The notes under the pieces: generated by a model
The model's input: only the letters and a program-made list of their open reading frames with translations
Databases searched by the model: none
What the model was told of the DNA's origin: nothing
Shown: positions 146 through 28,255 of the stretch, one piece after another
Position numbering within the stretch: position 1 is the first letter of the stretch
Layout of the letters: each line of letters starts with the position of its first letter
NCBI RefSeq assembly: GCF_030295915.1
Contig: NZ_AP027361.1
Span: forward strand, 1,612,001-1,676,000
From: Thalassotalea sediminis
GTDB lineage: Bacteria; Pseudomonadota; Gammaproteobacteria; Enterobacterales; Alteromonadaceae
DNA: 64,000 nt
Direction of reading: 5' to 3'
Position numbers and translations under genes: made by a program

Positions 146-1525
146 TTATTTTTCTACGAGAGAGAAAACGGTGTTTGCAATATCGGTATTATCTTGTAAA
201 CCTCTTAGCAAATCACTTTGATTACCAATAGCGAAAACAGGGACGTCGATAGCAGTATGTCCTGACGTTGTCCAACCGGTATTGGTTTTGTTGTCGATTA
301 TTTTATTTAACGCTTTATAAAGTGCAAAATGAACATTAGGTTTACGTTGTTCTTTTTGTTGCTCGGTTGATAATGCTTCGTATGTTTTTAATTTACGTTC
401 AGCATTTTGCTTTGCCTTGGCAAGCGCAGCAACATCATCTTTTGAAATTTCTGTATTAGCTAATAGTTCTGCAATGTTAGCTTGATTAACCTCCATTGTA
501 AGTAACTTCTCAGCTGCCGCATAAGTCGAAGACTTCATTTTTCTTAATAATTCTGGTGACCAACGATATTCACCTTTTGCTGCTAATGTTAATCCACCAG
601 TACTATGATCAGCCGTTAGTACCACTTGCGTGTCTGGATGTTTAGCAACGTATTGCTCTAAGAAGGTGAGGGTTTTTGCTAAATCATGCATTTCAGCCAT
701 AGCACTGTTTATGTCATTACTATGTGCTGCCCAATCCACTTGGCTAGCTTCAATTAACATAAAAAAGCCTTGTGGGTTTTCTAAATGTTTAAGTGCCGTT
801 TTGGTCATATCCAATAATTTTCCACCACTATTATCAATAGCAGGTGGAAGACCAACGTCAGCAAATAAGCCGAGCAGTTTATTATCAGTATTTGTCTGTG
901 TTAACTGTTGAAAACTATCGATATATTCGAAACCAGCATTTTTAAACTCAGTCACTAAGTTGCGATCTTCTCGAATGAAATATTGCCAACCACCACCGAG
1001 TAATACGTCAAATTGAATATCATTATCAATATAACTGTCGGCAATTTCGTTGTAGTTTCGACGACTTTCATTGTGTGTAATATAGGCCGCAGGTGTCGCA
1101 TGGTTAACTTGTGATGTCACTACAACACCAGTTTTTTTACCGTGTTTTTTTGCGCGTTGTAAAACCGTTTCAATATGCTTCTTTTCACCATCGACACTAA
1201 TAGCGCCGTTATAGGTTTTTTCGCCCGTAGCCAAGGCTGTCGCACCTGCTGCGGAATCTGTAACTCGACCTGATACGTGATCAGGGTAGGTACTACTCAT
1301 ACCAACAAGGTGTCGATCGAATACAGTTTGTTCAACGTTAATCGTGATCGGGTCATCCGCATAATATCGGTAGGCTGATGTAAATGCTGGCCCCATTCCA
1401 TCAGCAACGATCATAATAACATTATTTACTTTTGTTGATGTTTTAGGTGCTTGGGAAGGTTCTTGAGTAGCCGCACAACCTAATGTTAGTGAGGCTATTG
1501 CAAGAGCAGGAATAAATTTTTTCAT
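146..1525 (-). CDS. Alkaline phosphatase (PhoA superfamily), probable lipoprotein
   Basis: Metal-dependent phosphomonoesterase that would release phosphate from nucleotides and other esters outside the inner membrane. The 459-aa product has a short signal peptide ending in LTLGC, a plausible though imperfect lipobox. It carries the family's metal site ADGMG (D42), nucleophile motif TDSAAGA (S91), and the later metal ligands in TADHSTGG and SGHTAID. The start at 1525 is preferred over the in-frame ATG four codons upstream because GGAA lies six bases before it and the signal peptide then begins MKKF. It follows the EEP-family gene by 15 bp, and both follow the TetR-type gene, so the three probably form an operon. 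The context with cytidine deaminase and thymidine phosphorylase across the divergent promoter suggests a role in nucleotide scavenging (inference). The lipid anchor is less certain than the enzyme family. Confidence 0.92.
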   Translation of the reverse strand: MKKFIPALAIASLTLGCAATQEPSQAPKTSTKVNNVIMIVADGMGPAFTSAYRYYADDPITINVEQTVFDRHLVGMSSTYPDHVSGRVTDSAAGATALATGEKTYNGAISVDGEKKHIETVLQRAKKHGKKTGVVVTSQVNHATPAAYITHNESRRNYNEIADSYIDNDIQFDVLLGGGWQYFIREDRNLVTEFKNAGFEYIDSFQQLTQTNTDNKLLGLFADVGLPPAIDNSGGKLLDMTKTALKHLENPQGFFMLIEASQVDWAAHSNDINSAMAEMHDLAKTLTFLEQYVAKHPDTQVVLTADHSTGGLTLAAKGEYRWSPELLRKMKSSTYAAAEKLLTMEVNQANIAELLANTEISKDDVAALAKAKQNAERKLKTYEALSTEQQKEQRKPNVHFALYKALNKIIDNKTNTGWTTSGHTAIDVPVFAIGNQSDLLRGLQDNTDIANTVFSLVEK

Positions 1526-1540
1526 TATAATTTCCATAAA

Positions 1541-2719
1541 CTAGTGATCTGTAAGCAAGATATCTACCCAAACCAAACGATGGTCTGAAGATGCTTTACG
1601 TGAATCAATTAATCGATATTTTTCATCATCTTTGGTTGGCCAAAAGACCCCTGAATCAACAACGGTAAAGCCATGTTTTGATGGTAACACATAATCGGCA
1701 CGCATCCGCCAATAGGCAGTATGATTTGCTGAAAATTGATTATCAGGCGTATGTAGTTTTGCGGCCTTACTTTGTGGCTTAGGGTCTTGTACTGACGGGT
1801 GATTTAATAATGCTTGTATACCACTATTAATAGCGTCACCTTCTACAGAAGATGCATTTAAGTCACCGGCAATAACAAATAAGTCCTGCTTTTTTAATCC
1901 GCCATAGTGATTATTATCATCATAAATATAATCGCTCTTGCCTGGCGTAATATAGTCTCGCCAAAAACGTATTTCATCATGGTTTCGCTTGCCATTTCTA
2001 TCTTCTGGGCCATCAAAAACAGGTGGTGTTGGGTGGCTTGCCAATAGATGCAATGTTGTGTCGTAAATGCGAATAGGAATATCCCAGTGTGACTTAGATG
2101 AAAGTCTTAACGCATCCCAAGCTTCTTTACTGTAATAGTCCTCGCCAGTTTCAGGTAAGGTAGGCTTTAGTGCACCAGGCATATCCTTCCACTTAAAATG
2201 TTGGAAAGTACGGATGTATTTTGCGTCGATTGGATAACGAGAAAGTATTGCCATTGCATATTGACCGGGGAAGTGGCCAAAACCATGAGTATCAGTAGGG
2301 CGGGTAATATTACCATCGCCATTGGTGTCAACGGGTAATAATACGCCGGTATTGACTGGTGCTTGGTAAGAGAACGCATAGTTAATAGGTTTTTGCCCAT
2401 TTTGGCTTTTTGACAGGTATTCGTGCATAAATTCTGCAAGCGCTTTACGTCCAACATTTCCCTTATTATCGATCTCGTTTATCAATAATATATCTGGGTT
2501 TATGCGTTGGATAATTTCGGCAATATTTTTAATCTGTTGATTGTTATTTGCTAAGGCGTCTGACAATTCGTCGCCTGTAATGTGCTTTTCACCTTTTTTA
2601 ACATAGTTTGTGGCATCCATGCTTACGTTAAACGTAGCAACACGAATAGGTTGTTTTGCTTGTACATTTTGGCTTGTCATTAACAGTAGTAAACCTGTAA
2701 TCGTAGTAAGTAGTTTCAT
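1541..2719 (-). CDS. Secreted endonuclease/exonuclease/phosphatase (EEP) family hydrolase
   Basis: A 392-aa protein with a signal peptide (residues 1-21, ending NVQA) and the DNase I-like EEP fold. Catalytic signatures are visible: N31 in ATFNV, E82 in INEID, D286/N288 in AGDLNAS, and a C-terminal SSDHR. EEP enzymes cleave phosphodiester or phosphomonoester bonds with a divalent metal. The exact substrate cannot be read from sequence, but export and co-transcription with an alkaline phosphatase favour extracellular nucleic acid or nucleotide breakdown. Residues 131-139 (DTNGDGNIT) form an EF-hand/dockerin-like calcium loop, an uncommon insertion. The stop of the regulator gene lies 2 bp upstream and the phosphatase start 15 bp downstream, so translation is probably coupled. 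Confidence 0.88.
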   Translation of the reverse strand: MKLLTTITGLLLLMTSQNVQAKQPIRVATFNVSMDATNYVKKGEKHITGDELSDALANNNQQIKNIAEIIQRINPDILLINEIDNKGNVGRKALAEFMHEYLSKSQNGQKPINYAFSYQAPVNTGVLLPVDTNGDGNITRPTDTHGFGHFPGQYAMAILSRYPIDAKYIRTFQHFKWKDMPGALKPTLPETGEDYYSKEAWDALRLSSKSHWDIPIRIYDTTLHLLASHPTPPVFDGPEDRNGKRNHDEIRFWRDYITPGKSDYIYDDNNHYGGLKKQDLFVIAGDLNASSVEGDAINSGIQALLNHPSVQDPKPQSKAAKLHTPDNQFSANHTAYWRMRADYVLPSKHGFTVVDSGVFWPTKDDEKYRLIDSRKASSDHRLVWVDILLTDH

Positions 2720-2721
2720 GT

Positions 2722-3351
2722 TTATTTTATCTCTAGTCCTTTTAAAATAAAGCCTGTAAGAAACTGCGTAACATGCTCTATATCTTCGTCCTCATAATCT
2801 GCGCGATTCATTATCGTCAAAATTTGCGTTTCAAAATCAGCGTAGTGTTGCGTTGTAGACCAAATAAGGAAAATCAAACTAACAGGGTCCACTTCTGCCA
2901 TTTTTCCTTCGTTAATCCATTGCTGGAATACTTTAGACTTCTCTCTAACCCATTTTCGTAAATAAGTGCGCGCAAATTCTTTTAAATGCTGTGCACCTTG
3001 GATAATTTCCATCGCATATATTTTAGATGCTTTAGGCTCTTTAAATGACATTCTTACTTTTGCTGCAACAAATTTTTCAATAGCCACTTTGGGGCCATCT
3101 TCATATAGAATATCACCAATCCCTTGATCCCACATATCTAATGTTTGCTCTAGTACTGCGTGATAAATATTTTCTTTATTTTTGAAATAATACAGTACAT
3201 TAGCTTTTGGTAATCCAGCGGTATCAGCAATCGACTGTACCGTGGCACCTTTATACCCATTTGTAATGAACTCGTCTTGCGCAGCATCTAATATCTTTTG
3301 CTGGCTTTTAATGCGAATTTTACCTTGCTTTTTCGTTGAAATGTCAGTCAT
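2722..3351 (-). CDS. TetR family regulator, RutR-like
   Basis: A 209-aa repressor-type protein. The N-terminal helix-turn-helix (about residues 35-58, GATVQSIADTAGLPKANVLY) is followed by YYFKNKENIY, and the C-terminal ligand domain resembles the RutR/YcdC group (inference from overall sequence). RutR in E. coli senses uracil and thymine and binds TTGACCAnnTGGTCAA. Palindromes resembling that site lie 20 bp upstream of this gene, in front of the divergent receptor gene, and before cdd. The enzymes encoded nearby (Cdd, DeoA) would release uridine, uracil and thymine, so a pyrimidine effector is plausible. It heads an operon with the EEP protein and alkaline phosphatase. The family is secure; the RutR-like assignment and ligand are inference. 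Confidence 0.88.
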   Translation of the reverse strand: MTDISTKKQGKIRIKSQQKILDAAQDEFITNGYKGATVQSIADTAGLPKANVLYYFKNKENIYHAVLEQTLDMWDQGIGDILYEDGPKVAIEKFVAAKVRMSFKEPKASKIYAMEIIQGAQHLKEFARTYLRKWVREKSKVFQQWINEGKMAEVDPVSLIFLIWSTTQHYADFETQILTIMNRADYEDEDIEHVTQFLTGFILKGLEIK

Positions 3352-3371: not shown

Positions 3372-3387
3372 TTGTCTATTCGGTCGA
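3372..3387. promoter_or_regulatory. Candidate RutR-like operator upstream of the TetR gene
   Basis: On the minus strand TCGACCGAATAGACAA matches 10 of 14 defined positions of the E. coli RutR consensus TTGACCAnnTGGTCAA. It is 20 bp from the regulator start, so it could mediate autoregulation. It is the weakest of the set. Confidence 0.35.
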
Positions 3388-3645
3388 CTATTTATAGCCG
3401 CTTACACTACCAGAGATTGTAATATGCATGCAATCTCAACCGCTTAAATTGCGATGTTTTACGTAATTAAGTTTTAGTTAAGTGACAATTATAGCGCTTA
3501 TTAACTATGATTAACAAAAGTCGCATATTTGCCTTGTATCAAGCATTGTAATATTTTTTTATTACCATTATTTGAATGTTTGGTTATTAAAAAAATATCA
3601 TTTTAAGCTTGTTAAATATGGCGCTTAAACATTCTGGTTGATAAG

Positions 3646-3661
3646 TTGACTAACTGGTAAG
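3646..3661. promoter_or_regulatory. Candidate RutR-like operator in the divergent region
   Basis: TTGACTAACTGGTAAG matches 11 of 14 defined positions of the RutR consensus TTGACCAnnTGGTCAA. It lies near the middle of the divergent intergenic region. Confidence 0.4.
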
Positions 3662-3922
3662 GTTATATTTTTGTGATTTTTTATATAAATATTTTATTAA
3701 TATTTGTATTGGTGAAAAAAAATCACTTGAACAGTGTATTTTGCTTAAGCTGTTGAATTTAAAATGGATAACAAGGTTTTTGTAGTGAGTGTAGGTGAAG
3801 TTAAATTTGTTATTTAACTTGTATTTATGTCTTATGTGAAATAATGTAATAAAAGTGTAAAAAAGGTCTGGTCTAATTTAAAAGAAAATAAAGACTTTAA
3901 ACCGTACATTTTGTTGTGCTTT

Positions 3923-3938
3923 TTGAACACTTGGTCAA
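3923..3938. promoter_or_regulatory. Candidate RutR-like operator upstream of the TonB receptor
   Basis: TTGAACACTTGGTCAA matches 13 of 14 defined positions of the RutR consensus, the best match in the window. It ends 50 bp before the receptor start, a position from which a repressor could block the promoter or early elongation. Confidence 0.6.
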
Positions 3939-3988
3939 CAAAATGTATGTCGTACAAAATAAAACATACACCAAGGGAAATTAACAAC

Positions 3989-6900
3989 ATGAAAACCCAA
4001 CGCCTCTCACTTATATCTGGTGCAGTTATTCTTGCGCTTGGATTGTCTTCGCCGGCTATGGCTGATGATACGTCATCTTCTATGCGTGGTAATGTGCTTA
4101 CTTCGGAAGGTTCGGCCGTAAAAGATGCGACTATTACAATTGTTCACGAACCATCAGGTACTACAAAAGTCTTGAAGGTAAATGAATCTGGTGCGTTCTC
4201 TGCTAGAGGTCTGCGCGTAGGTGGTCCATACAGTGTTACAATTGATTCCGATACGCATAAAGATAAAAAACTTGAAGGCATCTATATTACATTAGGTGAT
4301 GTTTTTCGTATAAATGAAACATTGTCTAGTGAAGATATCGAGCGTATTGCTGTTACTGGAGCCGGTGAATTCTTTGACCCATCTAAAGGTTCATCAAGTA
4401 TTTTTAGTGGCGACGCATTAACTAAATCACCAGCGTTTAACCGTGACTTAAAAGACATTGTTCGCCAAAACCCAATGGCTGTAGTGGGTAATGATGGTGT
4501 TTCGCTATCATTAGCAGGCTCAAACCCTCGCTACAATAGCTTGGCTGTAGACGGTGTAAACTTAAATGATGACTTTGGTTTAGCAGGTAATGGCTATCCT
4601 ACAGAACGTTCACCAATTTCTTTTGATTCAATTGATCAAATTAGCGTTGCTGTTGCTCCTTTTACCGCGAAAGAAGGTGGCTTCTCGGGTGGTAAAATTA
4701 GTGTTGTTACTAAGTCGGGTACCAATGAGTTTCATGGCTCTATGTTTATGGAAAAGGCAAAAGATGCATGGGCAGGAGATCCTGAAAACCCTGAAACGGG
4801 TGATGACATTGACTTAAGTTTTGACGAAGAGTCTTGGGGGGCTACGTTAGGCGGTCCAATTATCAAAGATAAATTATTCTTCTTTGCTTCTTATGAAACT
4901 TACGAGTCGCCAAGTTCTGTTGATAAAGGCCCATCTGGTGCAAATGTTGCAAATACAGTAGATCAAGTTTCTCAAGCGGAAGTTGATCGCGTTGTTAGTA
5001 TTGCACAATCAAAATATGGTTATGATGCAGGCAGTTGGAATAATTCTATTCCATTAGAAGATGAAAAATATTCATTAAAATTAGACTGGAATATTAATGT
5101 TGACCACCGTACATCATTTACTTATTCACATGGATTTAGTAACAGTGCTGGTAACCAGGGTGCAGGACGTTCTGATGATTTATATTTATCATCTCATTGG
5201 TACAACCGCTCAAATGAATTTGACACGTATGTAGGTCAATTATTCTCAAACTGGAACCAAGACTTTTCTACTGAATTCAAAGTGTCATATAAAGAATCGG
5301 TGAACGGTCAAGTGCCTTTAGGCGGCTTAGACTTCGGTGAAGTGAAAATTGAAACGATAAACGGTGGAGAAATAATGCTTGGTGCCGATGACAGTCGTCA
5401 TGCAAACAAGCTTACCAATGAAACATTTCAGGTTCGTGCAAGTGGTGAGTATTTATACGAAGACCACGCGATTTCATTCGGTTGGGAGTATGAATCTGTT
5501 GATGTATATAACATTTTTATGCAGCATTATTTAGGATCTTGGTACTTTAACAGCATTGATGATTTTGAAAATGGTGTAGCCGATTGGTTTGAATATCAAA
5601 ACAACCCAAGTTTAAACCGTGATGATGCAGCAGCGTCATTCAGTTTAAGTAATCATGCGTTATACGTTGAAGATAGTTGGGATATTTCCGACACATTCAA
5701 TCTAACTTATGGTTTACGATATGAATTAACCACTAACTCAGATAAGCCAAATGCAAACCAAGGCTTTAAGGATCGTTATGGCTACTCAAACGATGAAAAC
5801 TTAGATGGTTTAGATTTATTTATGCCACGTGTTGCATTCACATGGGATGCTACTGATGAGCTTACTATTCGCGGTGGCTTTGGGCGCTTTAGTGGTGGTC
5901 GTCCGAATGTATTTATCTCAAATGCGTTCACAAATGATGGTAGTCGAATAGCGTTATACAGAACATTTGGTGACGCTATTGCTGAAAATACTTTTTTACA
6001 AAATGCTGATCCAAATAGCATTCCACAACATGCACAAGATCAAATTGCTAATTCAGTGTTAGGTGGACCAAACTCTAACATTGATATGATTGATCCTAAC
6101 TTTAAAATCCCAACAACTTGGCAGTATAGCTTAGCAGCAGATTATGTTGCTGATTTCTCTGCGATTGGCTTAGGTGAAGATTGGCGTTTAAGTGCAGAAG
6201 TATTATATAAAGATAATGAAAGAGACATGATTTGGTCTGATTTATCACGTACGTTAGATACCTCAAAAGGTAACAACGGTTATACGGTTGAAGGTCGTCC
6301 GATTTATACTTTTGCTGATCCAAGCCGAGATGCTCGTGATGTTATGTTAACAAATACCTCTGGTGGTCATTCGTTAATTGAAACCTTTAGTTTAGCGAAA
6401 AGCTGGGATAATGGTTTTAAAGCAAACTTCTCTTATACACATTCATCAATTACGAACAAAATTGATGCAACGGGTACTACAACCAATACTGCGTATAACT
6501 ATAACCCAGTGATAGATCCGGAAAACCCAGAAGTGGGTACATCTGCATACGAAGTTAAGCATAGATTAACGCTTAATTTATCGTATAACACTGAAATCAT
6601 TGAAGGCTACAACACAGCATTTCATATGTTTTGGGAACGTAAAGCAGGTAGACCATACAGCAACTTACTTGGCTGGAACAATCGTGACGGTATCTCAGGT
6701 GAGCTTGACCTAACCAGCGCAAACTTACCATACGTACCAACCGGTGCTGACGATGCTGCGGTAGATTTCGTTAACGGTTTAAGTTACGACGAAGTGATGG
6801 CTGAATTTAGTAAAGTAGGTATTTCATCTGGTGGTGGATACGTTGCTAAGAATGGATTCAGAGCGCCGTGGACTACAACGTTGGATCTTAGATTAGAACA

Positions 6901-7165
6901 AGAAATTCCAGGCTTTATGGAAGGTCACAAAGGCTTAATTTACTTTGATATTAAAAACGCGCTAGCTATCTTTGATAAAGATGCAGCACGTATGTATCAA
7001 TTGCCATTTGGTCAATCTGCAACAGAAGTTATTGATTATAGCATTAATGATGCAGGTCAATATGTATATGAAAGTGCTAATGTTAGCCAAGGTGAATCGC
7101 CTGTTGAGTGGAAAGATCGTGAGTCTACTTGGTCTATGAAAATTGGTATTAAGTACGTTTTCTAA
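3989..7165 (+). CDS. TonB-dependent receptor, Oar-like, with carboxypeptidase-regulatory-like domain
   Basis: A 1058-aa outer-membrane receptor. A signal peptide (cleavage after PAMA, about residue 25) is followed by a carboxypeptidase-regulatory-like beta domain (about 30-110), a plug (about 125-240), and a long beta-barrel ending in KYVF, the terminal aromatic residue typical of outer-membrane proteins. Oar-like receptors import substrates using TonB energy; the ligand cannot be read from sequence. Its placement between secreted phosphatase/nuclease genes and nucleoside catabolic genes suggests nucleosides, nucleotides or oligonucleotides (inference). The start at 3989 has AAGGGA ten bases upstream and places the signal peptide at the N-terminus; the longer frame from 3911 is rejected. 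A terminator at 7184-7216 separates it from cdd. Confidence 0.9.
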   Translation: MKTQRLSLISGAVILALGLSSPAMADDTSSSMRGNVLTSEGSAVKDATITIVHEPSGTTKVLKVNESGAFSARGLRVGGPYSVTIDSDTHKDKKLEGIYITLGDVFRINETLSSEDIERIAVTGAGEFFDPSKGSSSIFSGDALTKSPAFNRDLKDIVRQNPMAVVGNDGVSLSLAGSNPRYNSLAVDGVNLNDDFGLAGNGYPTERSPISFDSIDQISVAVAPFTAKEGGFSGGKISVVTKSGTNEFHGSMFMEKAKDAWAGDPENPETGDDIDLSFDEESWGATLGGPIIKDKLFFFASYETYESPSSVDKGPSGANVANTVDQVSQAEVDRVVSIAQSKYGYDAGSWNNSIPLEDEKYSLKLDWNINVDHRTSFTYSHGFSNSAGNQGAGRSDDLYLSSHWYNRSNEFDTYVGQLFSNWNQDFSTEFKVSYKESVNGQVPLGGLDFGEVKIETINGGEIMLGADDSRHANKLTNETFQVRASGEYLYEDHAISFGWEYESVDVYNIFMQHYLGSWYFNSIDDFENGVADWFEYQNNPSLNRDDAAASFSLSNHALYVEDSWDISDTFNLTYGLRYELTTNSDKPNANQGFKDRYGYSNDENLDGLDLFMPRVAFTWDATDELTIRGGFGRFSGGRPNVFISNAFTNDGSRIALYRTFGDAIAENTFLQNADPNSIPQHAQDQIANSVLGGPNSNIDMIDPNFKIPTTWQYSLAADYVADFSAIGLGEDWRLSAEVLYKDNERDMIWSDLSRTLDTSKGNNGYTVEGRPIYTFADPSRDARDVMLTNTSGGHSLIETFSLAKSWDNGFKANFSYTHSSITNKIDATGTTTNTAYNYNPVIDPENPEVGTSAYEVKHRLTLNLSYNTEIIEGYNTAFHMFWERKAGRPYSNLLGWNNRDGISGELDLTSANLPYVPTGADDAAVDFVNGLSYDEVMAEFSKVGISSGGGYVAKNGFRAPWTTTLDLRLEQEIPGFMEGHKGLIYFDIKNALAIFDKDAARMYQLPFGQSATEVIDYSINDAGQYVYESANVSQGESPVEWKDRESTWSMKIGIKYVF

Positions 7166-7183
7166 GTTGAGTTAACACACGTT

Positions 7184-7216
7184 AAAAAGCCAACAGATTA
7201 TCTGTTGGCTTTTTTT
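7184..7216 (+). terminator. Terminator after the TonB receptor
   Basis: An inverted repeat with arms AGCCAACAGAT and ATCTGTTGGCT, flanked by A5 and a T-run, 18 bp after the receptor stop. The A and T runs make it potentially bidirectional. Confidence 0.85.
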
Positions 7217-7238
7217 ATGGAATTCGTTAAGATAAAAC

Positions 7239-7254
7239 CTGACCAATTGGTTAA
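7239..7254. promoter_or_regulatory. Candidate RutR-like operator upstream of cdd
   Basis: CTGACCAATTGGTTAA matches 12 of 14 defined positions of the RutR consensus and is itself an imperfect palindrome. It ends 18 bp before the cdd start codon, between the receptor terminator and cdd, so cdd-deoA appears to have its own regulated promoter. Confidence 0.55.
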
Positions 7255-7272: not shown

Positions 7273-7689
7273 ATGCAAAAGAATAAGAATACCCCAAGTA
7301 TTGATGCGTTAGTAGATGCTGCAAAGATTGCTTATAACAGTGCATACGCGCCATATAGTCAATTTCAGGTAGGCGCAAGTTTGCTTACAAAAGATAATCA
7401 AGTCTTCAATGGCTGCAATGTTGAAAATGCGTCGTATGGTTTAGGTGTCTGTGCAGAACGTAATTGTATTGCTAATGCTGTTGTGCATGGATGTCAAACC
7501 TTTACTCACCTTGTTGTTTACACTGAACAGGAAAAGCTTACGCCCCCTTGCGGTGCTTGTAGACAAGTTATTGCTGAGTTCATGCTTCCAGAAGCAAAAA
7601 TCACGTCTGTAAATCACTTGAATCAAAGGAAAGAATGGTCGGTAGCCCAACTATTACCGGACGCGTTTTTACCTAGAGACTTAACATAA
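7273..7689 (+). CDS. cdd: Cytidine deaminase
   Basis: Zinc enzyme that deaminates cytidine and deoxycytidine to uridine and deoxyuridine. The 138-aa length fits the short, homotetrameric class. Zinc and catalytic residues are visible: C60 and E62 in CAERN, and C93 and C96 in PPCGACRQ; NVENASYG binds the ribose. The ATG at 7273 has AAGG at optimal spacing and is chosen over a TTG two codons upstream. Thymidine phosphorylase follows after 10 bp, so the pair acts in sequence: deamination, then phosphorolysis of the uridine-type product or thymidine. A RutR-like palindrome sits directly upstream. Confidence 0.95.
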   Translation: MQKNKNTPSIDALVDAAKIAYNSAYAPYSQFQVGASLLTKDNQVFNGCNVENASYGLGVCAERNCIANAVVHGCQTFTHLVVYTEQEKLTPPCGACRQVIAEFMLPEAKITSVNHLNQRKEWSVAQLLPDAFLPRDLT

Positions 7690-7699
7690 GGAGTCACTC

Positions 7700-9007
7700 A
7701 TGTTACCTCAAGAAATAATACGTCTAAAACGTGATGGTAAGCCACTTAGCACTGTGCAGATAAATTTTTTTGCATCAGGGTTAGTTGATGGTTCATTTAA
7801 CGATGCACAAGTGGGTGCAATGGCAATGGCTATTTTCCAAAACGGTATGGCAACCGAAGAAGTTATTGCATTAACCGATAATATGATGCGCTCCGGCGAT
7901 GTTTTATCATGGCCTGAGTTAGACGGCCCAGTCGTTGATAAACATTCTACAGGAGGTGTAGGTGATAAAGTAAGCTTTATGTTAGCAGCTATTGTTGCCT
8001 CTTGTGGTGTTTATGTCCCTATGATCTCAGGTCGAGGGCTAGGGCATACAGGTGGTACATCTGACAAATTAGAAAGTATTACCGGCGTAGACATTCAACC
8101 AAGTGTTGCACGCTTCAAACAGTTAGTAAAAGAAAATAATATGGCGATTATTACTCAAACTGATCGCTTAGCACCCGCAGATAAAAGACTGTATTCCATT
8201 CGTGATGTAACGGCTACGGTTGAGTCTATTCCTTTGATTACAGCGTCTATTTTGTCAAAAAAACTTGCTGCTGGGTTAGATTCTTTAGTTATGGACATTA
8301 AAGTGGGTAATGGGGCTATGATGTCTGATCTGGAAAATGCGCAGGCATTAGCCAAATCAATTGTGAGTGTCGCTAATGGTGCCGGCGTTAGTACACAAGC
8401 TATAATTACAGACATGAATCAAGTACTAGGGTTTACTGCTGGCAATGCGCTAGAAATGGTTGAAACGGCAGATTATTTAACTGGGGCTAATCGTTGCCCA
8501 AGGTTACATGGTGTAACAGTAGAGTTGGCGTGTGCGATGTTAATAAGTGCCGGTGTGACTCAAGACAAAGGCAGCGCTGAAGCTTTAGTTGAAAAGGCAC
8601 TTTCTTCTGGAGAAGCTGCAGAGCGATTTAACCGCATGATTGCACAATTAGGTGGGCCTGCTGATTTTATTGCCGATCCTTGGAAAATGATGAAAAAAGC
8701 TAAGGTAGTTCACGAGATTCTAGCGCCGGTAAGTGGCTACGTCAGTAAAATGGATACACGAGCAATAGGTATGCTAGTTGTGGCGATGAAAGGCGGTAGA
8801 ACAGCAAATGGTCAACAAATAGATCATAGTGTAGGGTTTGATGCTATTTTACCTATTGGTACGAAAGTAAGTGAAGGTGATGTAGTCGCTCGCTGTCATG
8901 CAAATAGTGCAGAAGAGGTTAAACAAGTAAGTCAGGGCTATATCGATGCTTTAACATTTGCTGACAGTGCTCCTGAGCAAACACTCATTTATCAACATAT
9001 TGTTTAA
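7700..9007 (+). CDS. deoA: Thymidine phosphorylase
   Basis: Cleaves thymidine and deoxyuridine with phosphate to the free base and deoxyribose-1-phosphate in the cytoplasm. At 435 aa it matches the bacterial DeoA length. The KHSTGGVGDK segment (81-90) and the family signature SGRGLGHTGGTSDKLE (110-125) are intact, as are the C-terminal alpha/beta domain elements. An AAGGAG ribosome-binding site precedes the ATG. It is the second gene of the cdd-deoA unit. The usual partners deoB, deoC and deoD are not in this window. The products thymine and uracil are the ligands known for RutR, which would link enzyme activity to the regulator (inference). Confidence 0.96.
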   Translation: MLPQEIIRLKRDGKPLSTVQINFFASGLVDGSFNDAQVGAMAMAIFQNGMATEEVIALTDNMMRSGDVLSWPELDGPVVDKHSTGGVGDKVSFMLAAIVASCGVYVPMISGRGLGHTGGTSDKLESITGVDIQPSVARFKQLVKENNMAIITQTDRLAPADKRLYSIRDVTATVESIPLITASILSKKLAAGLDSLVMDIKVGNGAMMSDLENAQALAKSIVSVANGAGVSTQAIITDMNQVLGFTAGNALEMVETADYLTGANRCPRLHGVTVELACAMLISAGVTQDKGSAEALVEKALSSGEAAERFNRMIAQLGGPADFIADPWKMMKKAKVVHEILAPVSGYVSKMDTRAIGMLVVAMKGGRTANGQQIDHSVGFDAILPIGTKVSEGDVVARCHANSAEEVKQVSQGYIDALTFADSAPEQTLIYQHIV

Positions 9008-25361: not shown

Positions 25362-25510
25362 AATTTTCTAAAGTTGTAACTTAATAAGGTATTGTAACCT
25401 TTAAATACAATCTCTTCTTGTCTCATAATTAACATTTATGTAACAATTGTACAAATAGCAATGGACTGCTAACTGTTTTGGCCGTCCAAATTTTATCTAA
25501 AGGATGGTAC

Positions 25511-28255
25511 TTGACTGTGATTAAAAATAAAGATGTAGTGTTGTTATCGATGCTAACACTCTTATCCGTAGGCTGTGGTGGTGGGGGTTCTAGTTCTGGT
25601 TCAACGTCTAAACAGGCAGCTAACACTGCACCCGTAATTTCGAATTTCAGTGAAACATCAGGGTATGAACGTGATGCCATCAGTGTTATTGCTAATGCAT
25701 CTGATAGTGATGGCTCTATTGCAAGTTATACATGGCAACAAACAGCGGGTACCACGGTTTCTTCACTAGTTGACGATCAAAAGGAATTGTCTTTTATTGC
25801 GCCCTCGGTGTCAGAGGATGAAACACTAACGTTTACGGTGCAAGTAACAGATAATAACGGCGCATCTGCCAGTAAATCTGTCGATATTAGTATCAGCGCT
25901 TATGAAGCGATTGATAATGCTGCGTTTGAAGATAATGGTTTTAAGCAGTGTTTGCCAAGTTCAGCGGAGAATGATCTTGGTCTTGTTGAAATTAACTGTG
26001 ATGGTATTGAATTTACTTCTTTAGCAGATTTAGCGTTGTTTCCTAACCTGAAAAGCGTAACAATTACTAACGCAAAATTAAGCAATGTAGCAACTTTTCC
26101 AAAGCTAGAACAACTTAACTATCTAGATTTATCAGGAAACTTCATACAAGATATTGACTCAGTTTTAGCGTTAACGTCACTTATTTATTTAGACTTAAGT
26201 AATAATCGACTTTATTCAAAAGACTACGACTTCGAACAACTCGCTGATTTAGAAACATTATTATTTAATAATGCTTTATATTACTCGGCGATTGACGCCA
26301 ATATTTTTAGTGGATTGACTAAGTTGTCAGTGCTCGATTTAAGTAATGTTTATCTTAATAACCCGCAAACAATAGAAAATCTTGTTAACTTAACTGATTT
26401 GAAGCTATCAAATGTTGGTTCTCGTTTTAATGCATTAAGCTTTTTAGCAAAGCTAGAAAGTCTTACGCATTTAGACATTAGTCATAATAATTATGTTACC
26501 GATTTAAGTGCCTTAGCTTTAAAAGATTCGATAACACATCTTAAGTTAAATGGCATTGGTACAACTGACTTCACACCTATTAGTGATATGACCTCATTAG
26601 TATCGCTCGATATTTCTGATAATTACGCAGAAATAGACTTGAGCGAACTTCAAGGATTGATAGACCTAGAAGCACTAAATATGAATAATGTTAGGTCTAT
26701 TAGTAACTTAGATAGTTTAAAGCAACTCACTAAGTTAAAAGAACTTTCATTGCAGCGTGCAGACTTGACTAGTGTTTCCTTTGTTGAGTCTTTAACCAAT
26801 TTAGAAAAACTAAATATCCAAGAGAATAGTCGTTTATCTGATATCAGTGGGCTGTCTGCTGCAACACAATTGACTTATTTAGATCTTTCAAACAACCGTA
26901 ATCTAGATGATATAAGTTCACTGGAAAACCTTACCAACCTTGAATATTTAAACATTGGGCGTTTGTATTATAACGCTGCAATTGATGTTTCTCCTCTTGC
27001 TGGCCTAACAAAGCTTTCAGCATTAATACTTGCTCATAATAGCTATGAAAATCTTGACCAGCTAGTTAATTTAACCGCGCTTGAAGAACTTTCTATTAGC
27101 TCGGCCAATATAAAGACATTGTTTGATATGAAAAATCTACTGTCGTTGAAATCAGTTGTGTTGGAAGGGCTATCTAGCTTAACCACTTTAGATGGCCTTG
27201 AGGGGGCTGTTAATGTGGAATCTCTTTCATTAACAAGTATGTATTCTTTAAATGATATGTCAGCCGTTAGTGAATTAAAAGATGTAGAATACTTAACAAT
27301 GAATAATGTAGATAATGTTGAATCTATGGCGTTTCTCTCATCGTTAATTAATCTAAAACAGCTAAATGTTTATTCTAATAAACATTTAGTATCACTAGAT
27401 GTGTTAACGGATCTTTCTGCGCTAGAGTCACTTAAAATGACAAGCATGAGTAAGTTAGTTGATATTAGCGCGTTAACTGACTTAACATCATTAAAGACAA
27501 TAGATTTAAGATATAATTACGCATTATTGTGTGCAGATATTAATGACTATATCGAGGCGAGACCTGAATCTACGCTACAATACTCTTCCAATTGCGTTGA
27601 ACGTCCAATAAATTTGGAACTGTTTAACGATGAAACATTTGCAGCTTGCGTACGAAACAGTGGTAATGATATTGCTGATATTACAGAGATATACTGTTAT
27701 TCACATGGAATTAATTCGCTTGTTGGTATAGAACAAATGGAAAATGTTCGTGATATAACTTTATATTTCATGGAAGATAATATCGACTATGCACCATTGA
27801 ATGAACTAAAAAAACTAAGAGCACTCTCTATTTTTAATGGGCAATTAACTTATGTACCTGACTTTTCAGGAATAGAAAAACTGTCGAGATTAAATATAAG
27901 CAGTAATAAAATATCCTCAGTTAATATTGAAAATATATTGCCATCGCTTGAGTACTTAAATCTTTCGTCAAACGATATTGATGAAATAGCTTATATTGAG
28001 TATATGCCTTCGTTAGTTAATCTAGATCTTAGTAGTAATAAATTAACCCACATCAATAAGATACAGTCTTTGAGTAAACTAACGGAACTAAACTTAACAT
28101 ATAATGATATTAATGATTTAACGCCACTAAATAACTTATTGGAGCTAAATTATTTATATTTATATGGAAATGAAAATATTGATTGTGCTGAAGTTGAAGA
28201 TTTAAAACAAAGTATCACTAACTTGTGGATCAACGAACCAAGGCATTGCCAATAA
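25511..28255 (+). CDS. Leucine-rich-repeat surface lipoprotein with PKD/Ig-like domain
   Basis: A 914-aa protein. The signal ends at LLSVGCGGGGSSS, a lipoprotein-type cysteine plus Gly/Ser linker. A PKD/REJ-like beta domain (about 35-130) precedes a long array of about 22-residue internalin/SDS22-type leucine-rich repeats (LxxLxxLxLSxNxLxDISxL). The array is split by a second Cys-containing cap near residue 705 (FNDETFAACV then EIYC) that resembles the first cap (FEDNGFKQCL then EINC), followed by six more repeats, so the LRR unit looks internally duplicated. It is probably outside the cell and involved in binding or adhesion (inference). TTG at 25511 is favoured by AAGGA seven bases upstream; GTG at 25517 is an alternative. 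Confidence 0.82.
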   Translation: MTVIKNKDVVLLSMLTLLSVGCGGGGSSSGSTSKQAANTAPVISNFSETSGYERDAISVIANASDSDGSIASYTWQQTAGTTVSSLVDDQKELSFIAPSVSEDETLTFTVQVTDNNGASASKSVDISISAYEAIDNAAFEDNGFKQCLPSSAENDLGLVEINCDGIEFTSLADLALFPNLKSVTITNAKLSNVATFPKLEQLNYLDLSGNFIQDIDSVLALTSLIYLDLSNNRLYSKDYDFEQLADLETLLFNNALYYSAIDANIFSGLTKLSVLDLSNVYLNNPQTIENLVNLTDLKLSNVGSRFNALSFLAKLESLTHLDISHNNYVTDLSALALKDSITHLKLNGIGTTDFTPISDMTSLVSLDISDNYAEIDLSELQGLIDLEALNMNNVRSISNLDSLKQLTKLKELSLQRADLTSVSFVESLTNLEKLNIQENSRLSDISGLSAATQLTYLDLSNNRNLDDISSLENLTNLEYLNIGRLYYNAAIDVSPLAGLTKLSALILAHNSYENLDQLVNLTALEELSISSANIKTLFDMKNLLSLKSVVLEGLSSLTTLDGLEGAVNVESLSLTSMYSLNDMSAVSELKDVEYLTMNNVDNVESMAFLSSLINLKQLNVYSNKHLVSLDVLTDLSALESLKMTSMSKLVDISALTDLTSLKTIDLRYNYALLCADINDYIEARPESTLQYSSNCVERPINLELFNDETFAACVRNSGNDIADITEIYCYSHGINSLVGIEQMENVRDITLYFMEDNIDYAPLNELKKLRALSIFNGQLTYVPDFSGIEKLSRLNISSNKISSVNIENILPSLEYLNLSSNDIDEIAYIEYMPSLVNLDLSSNKLTHINKIQSLSKLTELNLTYNDINDLTPLNNLLELNYLYLYGNENIDCAEVEDLKQSITNLWINEPRHCQ

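Follow-up and report, generated by a model that had tools for sequence, protein, structure and literature searches.

In enteric bacteria, genes of the cdd, deo and nupC type are coordinated by CytR and DeoR, which belong to the LacI and DeoR protein families. In Thalassotalea sediminis, this role seems to be held by a TetR-type protein, a RutR-like regulator encoded together with a TonB-dependent receptor and cdd-deoA in the stretch analyzed here (the window; 64 kb of a 3.9-Mb single-contig genome, NZ_AP027361.1). E. coli CytR is matched by four proteins of this genome at 28–32% identity, and no CytR was identified. As judged by the regulator, the nearest named relatives are Thalassotalea and other Colwelliaceae. 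We consider it likely that palindromes at this locus are real operators and that a TetR-type repressor of the RutR superfamily, present in Colwelliaceae and close relatives, controls through them a regulon for feeding on extracellular DNA. Genome comparison supplied the operators, the evidence that they are conserved and occur together with the regulator, and the gene content; binding by this regulator, repression, the effector and the receptor substrate are inferred.

The closest described protein, E. coli RutR (TIGR03613; PDB 3LOC, 4JYK, 6Z1B), shares with the window regulator the TetR_N and TetR_C_3 domains, a palindromic operator of about 16 bp and the residues W77, W167, Q171 and Q179. 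Unlike E. coli RutR, the window regulator sits with DNA and nucleoside genes and not with the rut operon. According to the available part of a comparative study, RutR governs a TetR regulon of pyrimidine catabolism, described in 68 genomes of 13 groups at about 10.9 genes per genome and with taxon-specific motif changes (Leyn et al., 2016, PMC5343134). That part of the study names no nucleoside, nuclease or receptor targets for RutR, and overlap with its supplements or with RegPrecise is possible. In a literature search going by titles and the openings of abstracts, neither a published description of the present regulon nor an account of marine bacteria coordinating DNA digestion with uptake was found among the entries listed. 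A distant nuclease of the regulon is a member of the ExeM/NucH extracellular DNases (NF033681), and the RutR-like operator before its gene was found here.

The initial annotation had placed four palindromes before the regulator gene, within the divergent region, before the receptor gene and before cdd. Their positions and their match counts to the RutR consensus were borne out, and the placements of the three genes are correct:

3372 to 3387, TTGTCTATTCGGTCGA: weak putative operator before the regulator gene, matching at 10 of 14 positions
3646 to 3661, TTGACTAACTGGTAAG: central putative operator, 11 of 14 positions, about 340 nucleotides (nt) before the receptor gene
3923 to 3938, TTGAACACTTGGTCAA: receptor-proximal putative operator, 13 of 14 positions, between a conserved block and the receptor start
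7239 to 7254, CTGACCAATTGGTTAA: putative operator before cdd, 12 of 14 positions
2722 to 3351, minus strand: RutR-like TetR regulator of 209 amino acids, TetR_N plus TetR_C_3 by domain match
3989 to 7165, plus strand: TonB-dependent receptor of 1058 amino acids with a CarboxypepD_reg domain, by domain match
7273 to 7689, plus strand: cdd, cytidine deaminase (TIGR01354), by family match

Conservation of these palindromes was assessed across orthologous loci. A regulator scan of 84,980 species genomes gave 87 relatives, from which the best 80 loci were taken; 69 of them, within L035–L104 and with at least 65% regulator identity, served with the window as orthologs, and the other 11, which fell outside that range or below that identity, were not used. 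In 50 of the 69 loci, all six genes have the same order and strands as in the window. In a motif-free search, TGACC-N4-GGTCA was the commonest exact dyad in the receptor–cdd gap (40 of 54 loci; the segments also extended 20 nt into cdd), and by matrix a cdd operator scoring at least 11.5 is found in 51 of the 54. A matrix trained solely on 27 distinct cdd sites from 51 of the 54 loci (the other three, matching at under 11 of 14 positions, were omitted) was then applied to the tetR–receptor gap, which it had not seen, and detected 60 sites in 47 of 62 loci. In the corresponding controls, shuffled gaps gave a mean of 0.13 (maximum 1 in 60 shuffles) and the reversed motif one site, and the rate in coding sequence predicts 0.46. 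Thus, the matrix scan of relatives that had been proposed as a check finds the palindromes conserved before orthologous genes.

The placement of the sites in the tetR–receptor gap varies among the 62 loci. Sites are regulator-proximal in 23, central in 28 and receptor-proximal (within 180 nt) in eight cases, and seven loci have both a regulator-proximal and a central site. The palindrome at 3923 is the exception to the conservation, as only L035 and L036 share with the window a site 65 nt before the receptor. A second palindrome, GATGA-N4-TCATC, seen in 30 of the 62 gaps, was rejected as an artefact: the segment included the first 20 nt of the receptor gene, and the gap itself lacks this palindrome. 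The 19 loci that deviate from the full window order include nine in which the contig breaks off on the side of the receptor or the receptor is partial (L043, L050, L054, L060, L063, L078, L084, L094 and L101) and two that hold second regulator copies (L087 and L089). No phosphatase match was found in three others of the 19 (L079, L083 and L097).

Within the window, the palindromes were ranked by a cross-validated matrix, trained on the relatives with the window and the six nearest loci (L035–L040) excluded. The two top places in the 64 kb are 7239 (19.0) and 3923 (17.2), and 3646 is the fifth (10.5), after two places in one coding open reading frame (ORF). These two operator-like places, 26315 and 27054, both lie within ORF 25478–28255 and are probably chance matches. 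The site at 3372 is not above background (5.2; range 5.2–6.2 across scorings); its aligned position is kept in six close loci, with its letters drifting. At three or fewer mismatches, the window contains nine places versus 3.45 expected, a number reached in three of 100 shuffles, and motif matching within the window alone is only moderately unlikely by chance. As a class, the four palindromes exceed chance, and 3372 is weak by itself.

The proposed regulon extends beyond the locus. In the window's genome, an operator, ATGACCATTTAGTCAA (14.8), lies between deoB and udk-nupC-deoC-tdk-upp. A sample of 36 genomes contained 22 with a deoB match; within these, this operator is present in eight of ten genomes with the regulator and in none of 12 without it (Fisher p 1.4e-4), or in four of six versus none of 12 when the window's own genus is counted once (p 0.005). 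The G003 site falls within the frame if deoB starts at its longest ORF, in which case the count becomes seven of ten (p 7e-4). A site precedes udk or deoB in 19 of the best 80 loci, the number reaching udk being uncounted. In addition, the ExeM/NucH-type secreted nuclease of the window's genome (NF033681, 604 bits) has CTGACCAAATGGTAAG (20.1) 51 nt upstream of its gene; the operator there also scores 20.1 in three members of the same genus, G001, G002 and G004, is weaker in G003 and reaches 26.2 in G011. Nine of 34 genomes carry both the regulator and a nuclease match (G000–G005, G011, G012 and G017), and all nine have a site of at least 11.5 near some nuclease gene, that of G005 being at the predicted start. 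Of the 13 genomes with a nuclease match and no regulator, some of whose flanks may miss the start codon, one has a site (G019). A pyrimidine-responsive regulon for uptake and catabolism had been proposed initially; a one-regulator regulon with conserved operators is supported, and its scope is wider than uptake and cdd-deoA, including deoB/udk-nupC-deoC-tdk-upp and the ExeM-type nuclease.

A phosphoribosyltransferase gene was rejected as a core target: its site occurs in the five genomes of the genus, but not in G005, G011, G012, G016 and G017. Motif counting over the whole genome was dropped as a way to define the regulon, being too noisy: 29 places with two or fewer mismatches were found versus 18 for the reversed motif, and 20 of the 26 places inspected beyond the window were discarded, being fully enclosed by an ORF of at least 80 amino acids. 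In L087 and L089 (Colwellia sp. 75C3 and 12G3), the second regulator copy has its own receptor, and operators precede genes of the nucleoside phosphorylase family, endonuclease I and transketolase (families tested in L087). This second copy appears as a duplicated, purine-leaning sub-regulon.

The remaining features of the locus bear on how its transcription would be arranged:

146 to 1525, minus strand: alkaline phosphatase (PF00245), last of three same-strand genes headed by the regulator, predicted from its N-terminus to be secreted
1541 to 2719, minus strand: endonuclease/exonuclease/phosphatase-family enzyme (PF03372), starting 2 bases past the regulator stop, likewise predicted from its N-terminus to be secreted
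3817 to 3877, plus strand: block upstream of the receptor gene, conserved in an alignment of seven close loci and probably the receptor promoter
7187 to 7216, plus strand: hairpin and T-run between the receptor gene and cdd, read straight from the sequence
7700 to 9007, plus strand: deoA, thymidine phosphorylase (TIGR02643), by family match

The regulator and PF03372 nuclease genes are probably on one transcript. As they lie 2 bases apart on the same strand as the phosphatase gene, the regulator-proximal operator probably governs the nuclease and the phosphatase too. The hairpin and T-run suggest that cdd-deoA is probably under its own promoter. In 22 cdd loci with a long leader, a spacing of 16 nt separates the TTGACC of the operator from the best -10-like hexamer downstream (mean 3.77/6), and the operator would therefore cover the -35 box. 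In 28 loci with a short leader, the operator lies near the cdd start, where a bound protein would hinder initiation or early elongation. Both layouts fit a repressor.

In the proposed model, the regulator would bind a 16-bp palindrome of the consensus YTGACCANNTGGTCAR at four kinds of promoter: that of its own operon with the nuclease-family enzyme and alkaline phosphatase, that of the divergent TonB-dependent receptor, that of cdd-deoA and, distantly in this genome, those of deoB/udk-nupC-deoC-tdk-upp and the ExeM-type secreted nuclease. The cdd operator seems to lie over the promoter, where a bound regulator would shut off transcription. Once extracellular DNA has been digested and nucleosides have entered, possibly through the receptor, whose gene context points to nucleosides or DNA fragments as its substrate, cdd and deoA would free uracil and thymine. 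These two bases are what cdd and deoA yield from deoxynucleosides, and product induction would thus be the simplest loop: uracil, thymine or a close analogue might fill the conserved pocket of the regulator, free the operators and thereby open the pathway.

Several observations weigh against this model. No cdd operator reaches the threshold in three of the 54 receptor–cdd gaps (L088, L092 and L093), nor any site in 15 of the 62 tetR–receptor gaps, and, the loci being related, such conservation counts are not independent trials. In five loci with the receptor and more than 5 kb beyond it (L042, L045, L047, L091 and L096), no cdd-deoA was found. The deoB/udk site is absent from two of the ten genomes with the regulator (G016 and G017), and a degenerate pattern yields 15 places in the window's genome versus 10 for the reversed control. 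The same operator also occurs before purine and reductive-pyrimidine genes beside paralogous regulators, and before nucleoside genes in genomes lacking the window-type regulator (G019 and G042). In RutR, bound uracil contacts W77, W167 and Q171 along with Y97 through a water molecule, and Q179 is contributed by the other chain (figure legend in PMC10891134). In the 69 window-type rows, the pocket reads, in the order W77, Y97, W167, Q171 and Q179, WFWQQ in 61, WIWQQ in six and WFFQQ in two. W77, W167, Q171 and Q179 are thus all kept in 67 of the 69, W167 being replaced by F in two, and Y97 is replaced by F or I in all 69. Finally, regulators beside purine genes mostly read WYWQQ, which means that the pocket does not discriminate pyrimidine from purine; pocket residues were for this reason dropped as proof of a pyrimidine effector, and pyrimidine sensing by the window regulator is an inference.

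These points leave three rival explanations to be weighed, of which chance matches of the palindrome in AT-rich DNA is very improbable. The whole-genome count near that of the reversed control and the background-level score of 3372 are what such matches would give, but 51 of 54 and 47 of 62 loci conserve the sites, shuffles give 0.13, and the operator co-occurs with the regulator. For the cdd and intergenic sites taken together, these results contradict chance, which is possible for 3372 alone. Another rival, in which the regulator would be a genuine ortholog of RutR and only its regulon would have drifted, is improbable, although less so. The window regulator has the same domains as RutR (TetR_N, 44.7 bits; TetR_C_3, 152.6 bits), its best solved-structure matches are RutR entries (E 2.4e-37), and window-type loci carry a putative operator of the TTGACCANNTGGTCAA type, as in E. 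coli RutR; the matrix detects one site (11.6) in the E. coli rutA–rutR gap and no other of at least 11 in those 9.5 kb. Nevertheless, the regulator scores 170.5 bits, below the TIGR03613 equivalog cutoff of 368, a cutoff that E. coli, as the control, passes and that none of 119 sampled genomes of the order reaches. In a 61-row tree, which included 21 of the 69 window-type rows, the window clade (100/100) is separate from the clade of E. coli RutR and five relatives (100/100); a sister relationship of the two clades is not rejected (p-AU 0.168). A second tree omitted L313, L296, L107, L105 and one L179 row, which have long branches, and the duplicates L300, L303 and L307. Three relatives in the RutR clade (L292, L294 and L295) adjoin a gene read as rutA-like, membership of the luciferase family being confirmed for L292, and the regulator's locus in the window is without neighboring rut genes. 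No RutA match, in a search without its own positive control, and no full-length dihydropyrimidine dehydrogenase match were found in the genome, making a role in breaking the pyrimidine ring unlikely. By the tests made, the regulator is a RutR-superfamily protein with a RutR-type putative operator and is not RutR, and the reading of it as RutR is not supported.

The remaining rival concerns the signal: the operators and the regulon would be real, but the regulator would derive from regulators of purine genes and sense a purine base or deoxyribose phosphate. The nearest neighbors of the window clade in the tree (97/97) include L106, with a xanthine-dehydrogenase-family gene in the locus, and L301, which adjoins an amidohydrolase-family gene. 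Besides the pocket letters mostly shared with purine-gene regulators, a phosphoribosyltransferase of the genus, with a weak hypoxanthine-type match, also has an operator. This explanation is unlikely, if the most serious of the three: the core targets cdd, deoA, udk, upp and tdk are pyrimidine and deoxyribose steps, and four of the five uracil contacts of RutR are kept in nearly all window-type regulators.

Paralogous regulators limit what the motif alone can tell. Other members of the superfamily in the order adjoin genes of the xanthine dehydrogenase, adenosine deaminase or dihydropyrimidine dehydrogenase type (some gene names by reading), and the same operator accompanies several of them; no genes of these types are adjacent to the window regulator. 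Because the operator is shared among paralogs, the motif cannot point to this one regulator in genomes that have them; in the window's genome, family searches found no such paralog, and the window regulator is the sole member of its family found there. Where TetR_C_3 paralogs coexist, cross-talk is likely, one motif seemingly being shared by pathway-specific paralogs. In G012, cdd-deoA lies beside an adenosine deaminase gene and a paralogous regulator and carries TTGACCAAATGGTCAA.

Further operators of this type were noted elsewhere in the sampled genomes. Next to paralogous TetR_C_3 regulators, they stand before xanthine dehydrogenase- or dihydropyrimidine dehydrogenase-type genes at L168 8809, L180 9594 and 13023, L173 7102, L176 9176 and L177 9802. 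In G019 (L184 4625), CTGACCAAATGGTCAG (26.1) precedes a pfkB-family (ribokinase-like) gene and a ribonucleoside hydrolase gene of the RihC/UriH type. Near-perfect operators lie in gaps near a gene without a family name in G011 (L183 4719) and near a nucleotide-deaminase-family gene (PF14437/PF00383) in G013 (L181 4472). In G042, which lacks the window-type regulator, two operators (L185 4564 and 4602; 25.1 and 18.1) immediately precede the gene for a nucleoside channel of the Tsx type (PF03502, 48 bits), which extends the operator type to outer-membrane nucleoside uptake in another family.

The receptor behaves differently from the rest of the cassette. In 47 six-gene loci, pairwise identities of the regulator, cdd, deoA, nuclease and phosphatase intercorrelate at 0.60–0.88, whereas the correlation of these five with the receptor is just 0.17–0.24. 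Receptors of 56 loci fall into 12 single-linkage classes at 60% identity, and these classes do not follow species boundaries. The regulators of the window and L037 are 88% identical but their receptors 38%, and for L036 and L065 the respective values are 75% and 83%. The receptor thus looks to have been repeatedly replaced within a conserved cassette, replacement being not separated from fast divergence by a tree; phage pressure or a change of substrate might have driven it. The regulator could then be a master switch through which uracil or thymine induces secreted nucleases, a phosphatase, a dedicated outer-membrane receptor for nucleosides or DNA fragments, an inner-membrane transporter and the deo pathway, with the receptor gene repeatedly swapped between species inside an otherwise vertically inherited cassette. 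We regard this fuller picture as possible and hold it tentatively.

DNA is a source of phosphorus, nitrogen and carbon in the sea. One operator links a secreted nuclease, a phosphatase, an outer-membrane receptor, a transporter and deoxyribose catabolism to one regulator. This gives a model open to testing and makes the receptor a candidate for bringing nucleosides or DNA fragments across the outer membrane. Reuse of the RutR-type operator beside paralogs for purine, pyrimidine and nucleoside pathways provides a case for regulon splitting after duplication. In these bacteria, a protein related to a known uracil-sensing switch seems to have a wider job than that switch, in breaking down outside DNA and feeding on its building blocks.

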